Origin: Candidatus Petromonas tenebris
GTDB lineage: Bacteria; Bacillota; Clostridia; Peptostreptococcales; Caminicellaceae
Direction: 5' to 3'
Assembly: GCA_014236755.1 (NCBI GenBank)
Contig: JACCKY010000018.1
Coordinates: forward strand, 1 to 56,559
DNA length: 56,559 nucleotides
This document shows positions 7,802 through 52,786 of this stretch, one piece after another (within the stretch, counting starts at the first letter, position 1; each line of letters begins with the position of its first letter). The translations under genes and the position numbers were made by a program. The notes beneath the pieces were generated by a model. That model was not told the DNA's origin. It made no database searches and saw only the letters and a list, made by a program, of their open reading frames with translations.

Positions 7802-7890
7802 AACACCTACTAAAATGACAAAGGGGATTTGTCAACATAGATATTAAGGTATAAATGGACAACTCTAAGATTCAATTTATATTACTCTAG

Positions 7891-8000
7891 GGATTTTGAG
7901 GTTTCCTTCTGAGCGATTTTGAAGCATTTGTTGCTACTTCTGTCTTCTTTTATTTAAAGAGGGCAAATCTTCACATGAGCCAGAAGGATTCTCAAAATCC
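7891..8000 (-). repeat. Branched structured element, family copy B (minus orientation)
   Basis: Read on the minus strand, an outer stem of 10 bp (GGATTTTGAG/CTCAAAATCC) is followed by an asymmetric loop, AA on the 5' side and AAC on the 3' side, then an inner stem TCCTTCTG/CAGAAGGA. The interior carries GCTCATGTGAAG on the 5' side and CTTCAAAATCGCTCAGAAGG on the 3' side. The same layout and related core words occur at 9945-10056 and 45218-45335, with different outer stem sequences. It lies between the malic enzyme gene and the transporter gene and would be transcribed in the transporter leader. Confidence 0.7.
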
Positions 8001-8034
8001 TAATAAATTAAACCTTCTACTTTGTTATCTATAT

Positions 8035-9756: not shown

Positions 9757-9919
9757 AATTTAGTAGGAGTTTTTTATCCGAGGACTGACTACTCTAATAC
9801 TCTTTCTTTCACAAATGAGAGTAATAGAGCAGTTACAATTCCTGGATTAATTCAGCTATAATTCAGCTGGAGCCCTAAACTCCATCTGAACTAAGTTTCA
9901 CTTAATCTCCTACTAAATT
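9757..9919. repeat. Three-way-junction-like inverted repeat
   Basis: A perfect 13-bp inverted repeat (AATTTAGTAGGAG at 9757-9769 and its complement at 9907-9919) encloses two imperfect hairpins: ACTACTCTAATACTCT against GAGAGTAATAGAGCAGT (about 9788-9833) and TTCAGCTGGAG against CTCCATCTGAA (about 9861-9891). The element sits just upstream of the fumB ribosome-binding site and would be in that leader. Confidence 0.6.
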
Positions 9920-9944
9920 AACTCACCTCGCTAGTTCCTTATAG

Positions 9945-10056
9945 ATATCCTTCAATAATCCTCTTCAAGCTCCGTAGAAGAGCTGTTTTATATAAAAAGG
10001 ATTTAGAGGTAAAAACAGCTCTTCAAAGTCGCTTCAGAGGAAACATTGAAGGATAT
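9945..10056 (+). repeat. Branched structured element, family copy A (plus orientation)
   Basis: Outer stem ATATCCTTCAAT (9945-9956) pairs with ATTGAAGGATAT (10045-10056). It is followed by AA on the 5' side and AAC on the 3' side, then inner stem TCCTCT/AGAGGA. The centre has GCTCCGTAGAAG and a GAAGAGCTGTTTT/AAAACAGCTCTTC hairpin, then CTTCAAAGTCGCTTCAGAGG. The layout and core words match copies B (7891-8000) and C (45218-45335). It lies antisense to the fumarase genes, between fumA and fumB. Confidence 0.72.
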
Positions 10057-10082
10057 TTAAAGCTATACTGTTAGAGTAACTA

Positions 10083-10197
10083 GCACAAGAAGTTAAATTA
10101 TCGTGAAACTTTATCTAACTTCCTTGCTCTATCTCCCACTTCTAGAAGTGAGAGTATTATATAAGTAAAATCACATCTGAAAATGTTTTCCTTGTGC
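10083..10197. repeat. Inverted repeat with internal palindrome
   Basis: GCACAAG (10083-10089) pairs with CTTGTGC (10191-10197). Inside are a GAAGTTA/TAACTTC hairpin and a perfect 14-bp palindrome CACTTCTAGAAGTG at 10137-10150. It ends 18 bp from the fumA stop codon. It is the third structured block in the fumA-fumB spacer and has no close core match to the others. Confidence 0.5.
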
Positions 10198-11819: not shown

Positions 11820-12093
11820 AAAACAAAGCGTCTGTCAACGCATTTGTTAGTTCGTAGTTGGTAGTTCGTAGTTGGTAGCCCTGATTAGCTCTTAGTTCTT
11901 AGCTCTTGGCTCTTGGCAAATCCTAGTCGTTCTTTAGAGTCTTTCTTGCGGCCTGTCACCTTTTTGCCATGAGCGGTCAGCAGTTAGCTGTTAGCCTTTT
12001 TAATATTTAACTGGTGAAATTTTGTAATTTCTTGCATCCCTTGAATTTACTTTGCTTTATACCTGCAATTTTTTTTTTAAATGTTTGAGTTCC
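11820..12093. repeat. Dispersed heptamer-type repeat, long copy R1
   Basis: The region starts with a hairpin (GCGTCTGTCAACGC flanked by ACAAA/TTTGT) and ends with AAATGTTTGAGTTC. Much of it is degenerate 7-bp units, for example TTCGTAG TTGGTAG TTCGTAG TTGGTAG and TAGCTCT TAGTTCT TAGCTCT TGGCTCT. A nearly identical copy lies at 16516-16778 and a diverged one at 20136-20392. The stretch 11786-12180 holds no gene. Confidence 0.8.
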
Positions 12094-12152
12094 TTTACTA
12101 TAAATTAAACCTTGAATTTTGCTATCTATATTATATCAAAATTTTAAGATGC

Positions 12153-16515: not shown

Positions 16516-16778
16516 AAAAACAAAGGCATCTGACGATGCTTTGTTAGTTCGTAGTTGGTAGCCCTGATTAGCTCTTAGTTCTTAGCTCTTGGCTCTTGGC
16601 AAATCCTAGTCGTTCTTTAGGGTCTTTCTTGCGGCCTGTCACCTTTTTGACATGAGCAGTCAGCAGTTAGCTGTTAGCCTTTTTAATATTTAACTGGTAA
16701 AAGTTTGTAATTTCTTGCATCCCTTCAATTTACTTTGTTTTATACCTACAATTTTTTTCAAAAAATGTTTGAACTCCC
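16516..16778. repeat. Dispersed heptamer-type repeat, long copy R2
   Basis: This copy is nearly identical to the one at 11820-12093 and in the same orientation, from the end hairpin (GGCATCTGACGATGCT flanked by ACAAA/TTTGT) to AAAATGTTTGAACTCCC. It separates yabS from yabT and its right end overlaps the last codons of yabS by about 20 bases. The two copies are direct repeats flanking ftsH, tilS and yabT. Confidence 0.8.
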
Positions 16779-20135: not shown

Positions 20136-20392
20136 GAACAAAAGCGTCTAGCGACGCATTTGTTGGTTCGTAGTTAGTAGTTGATAGTATATGAAAGTCA
20201 GACTTTTGAGACTTATTAGTCAGTCATTAGTTCTTAGTCTTTAGCCCTTGGCAAATTCGGATAAACCGTTTTTCGCTATTCAGTTAGGATCAAGCTTGCG
20301 AGCTTTTCCGGTCACCCGTAACCTGTCACCTTTTTTTAAATCTTTTAACTCTTTTTTAGCCGTCATCTGTCATCCTAAAAATGTTTCAACTC
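20136..20392. repeat. Dispersed heptamer-type repeat, diverged copy R3
   Basis: It begins with GAACAAAAGCGTCTAGCGAC, an end hairpin like that of R1, and ends AAAAATGTTTCAACTC. Units include TTCGTAG TTAGTAG TTGATAG and GTCACCC GTAACCT GTCACCT. It lies between the tRNA operon terminator and the spoIIE promoter. Confidence 0.7.
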
Positions 20393-20439: not shown

Positions 20440-20515
20440 TGGAGCTGGCGATGGGACTCGAACCCGCAACCTGCTGATTACAAGTCAGCTGCTCTACCAA
20501 TTGAGCTACGCCAGC
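20440..20515 (-). tRNA. tRNA-Thr (TGT)
   Basis: A full cloverleaf with encoded CCA. The anticodon stem is GCTGA/TCAGC and the loop CTTGTAA gives anticodon TGT. The T-loop reads GGTTCGAGTCC. It is the last of six tRNA genes transcribed on this strand. Confidence 0.97.
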
Positions 20516-20531
20516 ATCTTATTTGGTTTAA

Positions 20532-20608
20532 TGGCGACCCGGAAGGGACTCGAACCCTCGGCCTCTAGCGTGACAGGCTAGCGTTCTAACCAACTGAACT
20601 ACCGGGCC
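20532..20608 (-). tRNA. tRNA-Asp (GTC)
   Basis: The acceptor GGCCCGG pairs with CCGGGTC, CCA is encoded, and the loop CTGTCAC gives anticodon GTC. The T-loop GGTTCGAGTCC is intact. Confidence 0.97.
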
Positions 20609-20725
20609 ATACTTAGCTCTCAGCCCCTAGCTATTAGCTCATGTACAGCCTTTCTTTTAGGTTCTAAAACCTTTAAACTTGCTTTCAAAGTCAGTAACTA
20701 TTAGCCAGTGGGTATTAGCTTATTT
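20609..20725. repeat. Short heptamer-type repeat tracts inside the tRNA operon
   Basis: Words such as TAGCTCT CAGCCCC TAGCTAT TAGCTCA next to tRNA-Asp and ACTATTAGCCAGTGGGTATT before tRNA-Val match the 7-bp family seen elsewhere in the window. They fill the enlarged Asp-Val spacer. Confidence 0.5.
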
Positions 20726-20730
20726 CAATT

Positions 20731-20806
20731 TGGTGGGCGCAACAGGGCTCGAACCTGTGACCCCCTGCTTGTAAGGCAGGCGCTCTCCCAGCTGAGCTAT
20801 GCGCCC
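20731..20806 (-). tRNA. tRNA-Val (TAC)
   Basis: The anticodon stem CCTGC/GCAGG encloses CTTACAA, anticodon TAC. The acceptor GGGCGCA/TGCGCCC and the encoded CCA are intact. Confidence 0.97.
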
Positions 20807-20807
20807 A

Positions 20808-20884
20808 TGGTAGCGGCGAGTGGACTCGAACCACCGACCTTCCGGGTATGAACCGGACGCTCTAGCCATCTAAGCTACGCCGCC
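20808..20884 (-). tRNA. tRNA-Met (CAT), elongator
   Basis: The anticodon stem TCCGG/CCGGA encloses TTCATAC, anticodon CAT. The acceptor begins GGCGGCG and pairs fully, unlike the initiator, and CCA is encoded. Similarity to the Bacillus elongator tRNA-Met pattern makes tRNA-Ile(CAT) unlikely. Confidence 0.93.
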
Positions 20885-20889
20885 ATAAT

Positions 20890-20965
<76 letters not shown>

Positions 20966-20966
20966 A

Positions 20967-21077
20967 CATTAATACAATTAACAATTGAGACTTTACAATT
21001 AAAAGTTTTTATTTTTAGCCTTTAAGGAATGACCCTAAGAAATTGTTAATTGTCAACTGATAATTGACAATTAAATT
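20967..21077. repeat. AT-rich heptamer tracts between fMet and Leu tRNAs
   Basis: ACAATTA ACAATTG near 20973-20990 and GTTAATT GTCAACT GATAATT GACAATT at 21043-21073 keep a 7-bp period, an AT-rich version of the repeat family seen elsewhere. Confidence 0.55.
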
Positions 21078-21167
21078 TGGTGCCGGGGACCGGAATCGAA
21101 CCGGTACGGTCTTTTAAGGACCGCAGGATTTTAAGTCCTGTGCGTCTGCCAGTTCCGCCACCCCGGC
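21078..21167 (-). tRNA. tRNA-Leu (TAA)
   Basis: A 90-nt class II tRNA with a long variable arm (CGGTCCTTAAAAGACCG). The anticodon loop CTTAAAA gives TAA. The acceptor GCCGGGG/CCCCGGC and CCA are intact. It is the first gene of the tRNA operon. Confidence 0.97.
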
Positions 21168-45189: not shown

Positions 45190-45217
45190 CCTATTTTTAA
45201 TAGTTTCTTATAATAGT

Positions 45218-45335
45218 AGCCTATAAGAATCTGCTTCAGACTCCGGTGGTGAAGGACTGTTTTCCTTTATAACCAAAAACATCAAACTGGAAAATACATC
45301 CCTTTAAAGCTGGCTCATCAGAAATCTTATAGGCT
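45218..45335 (+). repeat. Branched structured element, family copy C (plus orientation)
   Basis: Outer stem AGCCTATAAG (45218-45227) pairs perfectly with CTTATAGGCT (45326-45335), then AA on the 5' side and AAT on the 3' side, then inner stem TCTG/CAGA. The core has CTTCAGACTCCGGTGGTGAAGG followed by ACTGTTTT on the 5' side and CTTTAAAGCTGGCTCATCAG on the 3' side, corresponding to the core words of copies A and B. It lies between two convergent genes. Confidence 0.65.
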
Positions 45336-45375
45336 GTTTTAGTAAAATTATCTAGTCCAATAAGTTTATTAGAAC

Positions 45376-52540: not shown

Positions 52541-52570
52541 TGATAATCATCTAAACACCTTTCACCCTGT

Positions 52571-52754
52571 GTAAATTAGCTCTTCTGCGGAAGATTGGGC
52601 TATCAACCGAAGACAGTACTATACTTGTTTAGCATAGTCCCAACATATTGTTCTAGGGAAAAACAATATGTTTCGGCAGTCATACCTTTCCCTTAGCCAT
52701 ACGGTTCCCTTACCTAGGCTAAAGTACTCTTTATAACTGCGGCCTCTAATTCAC
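52571..52754 (-). ncRNA. Lysine riboswitch (L-box) aptamer
   Basis: Read on the minus strand, P1 forms between GTGAATTAG (52754-52746) and CTAATTTAC (52579-52571). The conserved junction reads AGAGGCCGCAGTTATAAAGA, followed by GGGAACCGTATGGCTAAGGG and AAAGGTATGACTGCCGAA, then a long ACATATTGTTTT/AACAATATGT arm, GGGACTATGC/GTATAGTACTGTC and AGAAGAGC near the 3' end. These match the L-box core. It sits between a strong promoter and a terminator upstream of lysC. Confidence 0.93.
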
Positions 52755-52786
52755 AACACAAAAGGAATAATTATTCATTTCTTCGT

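Follow-up and report, generated by a model that had tools for sequence, protein, structure and literature searches.

A foldback core common to MITEs with IS630-like and IS982-like ends in Candidatus Petromonas tenebris and its relatives

Three foldback stretches in the window, a 56,559-nt stretch of DNA from Candidatus Petromonas tenebris that was analysed as a whole, are very probably parts of non-autonomous MITEs moved in trans by insertion sequence (IS) transposases, with one homologous foldback core inside elements of both end types. As judged from sequence comparison, this core is common to MITEs with two unrelated IS end types, which is the new part of the finding; the MITEs themselves are of a known kind. 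MITEs are commonly taken to be degraded copies of a single insertion sequence. That one core occurs with two unrelated end types in related genera, each end type showing the same bias in direction, raises the testable question of whether a MITE interior is a leftover or is selected in its own right, and warns that dispersed “RNA motifs” with covariation can, in clostridia, turn out to be mobile DNA.

A preliminary description had placed foldback stretches of one architecture (outer stem, AA/AAC internal loop, inner stem, central helix) at 7891–8000 (minus strand; copy A), 9945–10056 (plus strand; copy B) and 45218–45335 (plus strand; copy C), and this was confirmed by folding and by a strict structural scan. 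Fold z-scores on the strands named there, each from 200 shuffles, are −5.3 for A, −9.2 for B and −4.4 for C. The scan, which allowed at most one G-U pair in the outer stem and used the loop pattern AA/TC...GA/AAY, gave exactly three matches on both strands of the window, copies A, B and C, against a mean of 0.035 and a maximum of 1 in 200 first-order random windows. By the same scan the outer stems measure 10 bp (A), 15 bp (B) and 11 bp (C), and in all three copies they differ in sequence yet are complementary, as had been claimed. The common AA/AAC loop is present in the three copies, but it is not universal: among the family consensuses discussed below it is kept in ownA, ownB, ownC, MA and G4A and absent from MB and G1B, where the stem is continuous. 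The opinion that no Rfam class fits was also borne out, the only matches in the window at gathering cut-offs being a lysine riboswitch and six tRNAs, with none to the elements, and those at E up to 10 being weak and far below their cut-offs. For the loops, kink-turn and similar simple RNA motifs were weighed as candidates and set aside.

The bounds of 110–118 nt first given to the copies proved too short. In alignments that include the flanks, conservation extends beyond them and then breaks off sharply, and end alignments place terminal inverted repeats outside, the whole elements measuring about 173–184 bp. The family A element, with IS630-like ends, occupies 7850–8033 (minus strand; 94% over 194 nt by BLAST of a full A copy), with A-type terminal inverted repeats at 7850–7872 (element 3′ end) and 8011–8033 (element 5′ end), both on the minus strand and drawn from a 27-copy A alignment that gives their inner bounds approximately. 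The family B element, with IS982-like ends, is 173 bp long (9921–10093, plus strand; end alignments, duplications and BLAST) and lies between two copies of a TAAATTA target duplication (9914–9920 and 10094–10100). Family C is represented by an old copy with degenerate B-type ends at 45190–45369 (plus strand; bounds approximate and set by eye), and B-type left ends are found in other C copies (L052, L053, L055, L056 and L057). Families B and C thus have an end type in common, whereas family A has a different one, of which a solitary remnant lies at 12100–12130 (minus strand; 90% over 31 nt; repeat D19).

Flank alignments give the ends of family B as TTAACTTGCCTCGCTAGTTCCT ... AGTAACTAGCACAAGAGGTTAA and those of family A as TATAGATAACAAAG... 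at one end and TATAGATAGACAACTC... at the opposite end, with TATAGAT/ATCTATA in other A copies. The B-end pattern occurs at 171 sites in the genome, compared with 6 for a reversed control, and 40 of the 61 family B elements with both ends are 172–173 bp long. The target duplication of this family is 7 bp, TAANTTA; the outer 7 nt of the elements with both ends are identical in 25/61 and alike in at least six of seven positions in 46/61, the null for exact duplications having a mean of 7.35 and a maximum of 16 (1000 shuffles of partners). In an alignment of 12 B-type copies from Maledivibacter halophilus, several likewise have target duplications recognisable by eye. The family A boundary is TATA, which is consistent with, but does not prove, a TA duplication. 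Family B copies lie against or inside family A fragments as nested MITEs (right flanks of L012 and L017; left flank of L011). Being short, free of a transposase gene and present in many dispersed copies, the elements class as MITEs, in agreement with the mobile option of the preliminary description; its other option, a trans-acting RNA, is not supported, the copies being interiors of MITEs with IS-like ends.

The 2.94-Mb genome (120 contigs) contains family B, that of window copy 9945, at 40 sites among the best 40 of 165 candidates (93–100% identical) and family A, that of window copy 7891, at 40 sites among the best 40 of 91 candidates (85–100% identical). Family C, that of window copy 45218, was found at ten sites at E < 1e-6, the other nine being 70–80% identical to the window copy. 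A first covariance model, trained on nine B and C copies that included copy C and not copy B, returned at least 125 matches among the best 150 of 2,030 candidates scored, copies A and B being matched; at least one site is counted on both strands, because the elements are palindromic. Copies of at least 80% length occupy at least 134 distinct sites among the loci extracted (82 B, 40 A and 12 C). The covariance-model search proposed at the outset did recover many further copies. The notion of one dispersed family held for the dispersal and the high copy number, but A and B are separate families with different ends and C is a diverged relative of B. A 121-bp derivative with TTA/TAA edges, which lacks the central helix and keeps the basal stems, is a second-generation mini-MITE; its five dispersed copies (L137 732–852, L137 1181–1301, L138, L139 and L140) indicate that the central helix is dispensable for spread.

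Four genomes were searched for genes of two transposase families. In the relative G001, the gene of an IS982-type transposase (L259; NF033520, 250 bits against a cut-off of 130) has a B-type end beside it that matches at 18/19 nt, with its outer edge 94 nt past the stop codon (maximum 15 in 60 first-order shuffles). In the genome of Ca. P. tenebris itself, where the IS630 genes are fragments, two IS630-type remnants each have one A-type end: 21/26, 28 nt past the stop, in L261 (shuffle maximum 19 or 18, depending on the query) and 24/26, about 120 nt from the matched domain, in L263 (shuffle maximum 18). The A-type end of an IS630-type gene in G004 (L262) is weaker, at 20/26 where the best of 60 shuffles reaches 19, and lies 2 nt past the stop; close to this remnant, L262 also holds an ORF (2201–2677) that we take to resemble an IS200/IS605-type TnpA. 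The single own-genome match to PF13612 (L260) has a poor best B end (14/19) and falls below cut-off throughout against IS5, IS1182 and IS982 models, so an IS982 partner with a B end is found in the relative G001 only and none in the own genome. An autonomous partner was also sought by end pattern, in 20 stretches from the 100 B-end sites listed of the 171; all 11 unpaired ends read there proved to lie on shortened MITE remnants. The preliminary description had named a match to a known IS end as evidence against its RNA family: the ends do match, partial IS630-type genes having one A end each and the IS982-type gene a single B end, but the four genomes searched for transposases yielded no intact autonomous element flanked by a pair of such ends. 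Family A is called IS630-like and families B and C IS982-like by their ends, because like ends adjoin such transposase genes, and we infer that these IS630- and IS982-type enzymes have moved them.

Searched with the first model, 4/60 genomes match, namely the own genome, G002 and, with single weak matches, G036 and G044. A second model, built from 53 copies, matches 6/393 genomes order-wide at E 1e-3: the own genome, G001, G002 and G004, all of one family, and G036 and G100, of another family, with weak single matches. The class-wide search matches 1/391 genomes at E 1e-4, the own genome; low-copy families would be missed in the order- and class-wide searches, because these scored nine candidates per genome. 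G002 is M. halophilus M1 (Peptostreptococcales, Caminicellaceae by NCBI), which carries both end types in many copies each. The weak matches in family f11 comprise L237 (G100), with A-like flanks by eye, L102 (G036), weakly like L237, and L103 (G044), which is unproven. Two A-type elements of M. halophilus lie 2.3 kb apart (L122 850–953 and 3129–3232; L123) on a stretch that is also an IMG/VR viral contig.

Homology of the core across end types is evident in M. halophilus, where the consensus with A ends (MA) and that with B ends (MB) are 81% identical over 79 nt; the family consensuses were made partly by eye, and one, g29, is a single copy, L237. MA is 70% identical to own family A over 100 nt and 77% identical over 111 nt to G4A, with which it has ends in common, while MB and G1B are 87% identical over 103 nt. 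Corresponding figures are 72% over 99 nt for ownB and ownC and 75% over 61 nt for ownA and ownB, and a covariance model from B and C alone recovers copy A at E 3.2e-13. Chimeric copies, C/B in L057 and L042 and B/A in L132, can also be detected. Taken with the homology of the cores, these suggest that the core has probably been exchanged between MITE families by recombination.

In a 53-copy alignment fitted to the structure, both partners change in 23/28 pairs and 90.9% of cells are paired, compared with 35–52% in slid-partner controls; shuffles give a mean of 19.6 pairs changing on both sides, with 2/500 reaching 23, all of these statistics ignoring kinship. The predicted covariation is therefore present in changes on both sides, above slid and shuffled controls, but further pair types show no excess (330/500 shuffles). 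Over the nine-base arms of eight families, 8.4/9 positions are paired within a family (range 7–9) and 5.1/9 across families. The 83 copies of family B, in which a double change to another pair affects just 6 cells, have 70 single changes to G-U, 61 to A-C and 97 to other mismatches, without the asymmetry of G-U over A-C. Counts of G-U against A-C in the outer and inner stems of the other sets, which are small, are 21 and 12 in A, 5 and 8 in C and 6 and 2 in M; the family A count excludes the central helix, where a bulge puts the register off, and includes three misregistered outermost outer pairs. In 7/8 family consensuses it is the reverse strand that gives the better fold, by a slight margin or more, and the strand first described is the more stable in 6/41 A, 35/83 B, 4/13 C and 1/17 M copies. 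Changing but complementary stems had been taken as a mark of selection on RNA as such, a reading that the location in MITEs with IS-like ends, the even B mismatches and the better folding of the reverse strand do not uphold. We read the figures to mean that resident copies decay freely and complementarity is kept in the spreading lineages.

Both neighbouring genes could be called (ORFs of at least 100 aa) at 119/134 own-genome sites, 89 of which lie between tandem genes. The earlier remark that orientation relative to genes is mixed is true of three copies, but genome-wide the core sense strand reads with the tandem genes at 64 sites and against them at 25 (p 4e-5; A 24:5, B 35:19, C 5:1), and an ORF threshold of 70 aa gives similar figures. 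Two relatives together have 35 with and 7 against (p 1.5e-5), made up of M. halophilus A 11:3 and B 17:4 and G004 A 7:0, five G001 copies at edges falling outside this count; an overlapping sample of 20-kb stretches from M. halophilus gives 28 with and 9 against. Relative to replication, 77 of 113 own-genome copies are on the leading strand and 36 on the lagging strand. Transcription and replication are inseparable as causes of the bias, because the lagging strand carries too few of the tandem genes (2/86 in the own genome, 0/37 in M. halophilus); convergent and divergent sites divide 16:11 (leading:lagging) in the own genome and 6:3 in M. halophilus. The presence of the bias in both end types suggests that its cause is the core rather than the transposase. 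That it is weaker in family B, where both strands fold about equally, is suggestive only.

These observations can be accommodated if family A is moved in trans by an IS630-type enzyme and families B and C by an IS982-type enzyme, as the like ends observed would imply, and if the foldback core passes between MITE families by recombination. Arms would stay complementary in multiplying lineages while inserted copies decay. The likeliest role of the core, to which we give slightly less than an even chance, is one within the transcripts of the genes that it lands between, so that insertions reading with those genes would be tolerated or favoured and those reading against them removed. It is quite unlikely, as a bolder proposal would have it, that the core is a passenger module that swaps vehicles between MITEs of unrelated transposases, keeps its structure, acts in one orientation in host transcripts and is itself the unit of selection. 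Complementary arms could also arise by mutation, if template switching in an imperfect palindrome copies arm onto arm so that stems change together in a spreading MITE; compensatory changes do fall mainly between families, with the 6 cells in 83 copies noted within B, and the internal loop has given way to a continuous stem in MB and G1B. Such switching should, however, erase the unpaired AA/AAC loop, which persists in the five other consensuses, and we consider this origin of the arms unlikely.

A DNA foldback, in which the core, single-stranded or as a cruciform, draws the two ends together and raises transposition with any transposase, would suit a core common to two end types, the lack of an RNA-strand signature in family B and the retention of basal stems by the five derivatives without the central helix; but a symmetric foldback does not by itself predict an orientation bias, although strand-biased insertion relative to the replication fork could give one, and its role is doubtful, if a serious possibility. 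If the copies were instead a structured RNA family in its own right, whether it acted in trans or as a cis-regulator, the orientation bias would be at home there, as would the 23/28 pairs changing on both sides and, as a weak lean subject to the register caveat, the 21 G-U against 12 A-C in the outer and inner stems of family A. Against such a family stand the position of the copies within longer elements that have transposon ends and, in family B, duplicated targets, the lack of a strand signature in B with the reverse strand often more stable, the lack of an Rfam match and the spread of five derivatives without the central helix, which together make it highly improbable. Movement as MITEs remains the reading that we prefer.

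In literature coverage that left most subscription journals outside, no description was found of these elements or of one core common to two IS end types. By description they resemble the bcr1–bcr3 repeats of the Bacillus cereus group, which are intergenic, high-copy and MITE-like, and 84/165 and 62/155 copies of the bcr families (all 18 families together) are found in transcripts; the part of that account available makes no mention of one core common to two IS end types (PMC3446304). RUP of Streptococcus pneumoniae is described in the available portion of its source as about 107 bp long, with a transcript that folds and ends resembling those of IS630-Spn1, and BOX of the same species as modular (PMC3049150). 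Unlike RUP and BOX, the present elements belong to another host, have IS982-like ends as one end type and carry homologous cores across both. IS982-family ends are also found in a Cardinium MITE of about 240 bp, said to derive from a parent IS982 element, for which the accessible text mentions no foldback core (PMC9769881). Correia and ERIC are likewise foldback MITEs and, according to the sections available, affect transcripts, Correia through RNase III cleavage and ERIC through an RNase E site in one orientation (PMC10969869, PMC3049150).

A second dispersed repeat set in the window is built from words that resemble TTAGTTCTTAGCTCTTGG and CCTGTCACC in degenerate form; it lies at 11858–12075 and 16541–16758, and the copies near 20211, 22254, 29397 and 42412 are weaker. 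Words like these also adjoin truncated MITEs in other parts of the genome (L128, L129 and L130). The six tRNA genes form a cluster at 20443–21167 (minus strand), and the lysine riboswitch (RF00168, 116.7 bits; 52569–52756, minus strand) lies upstream of an ORF of 404 aa that has the same orientation.
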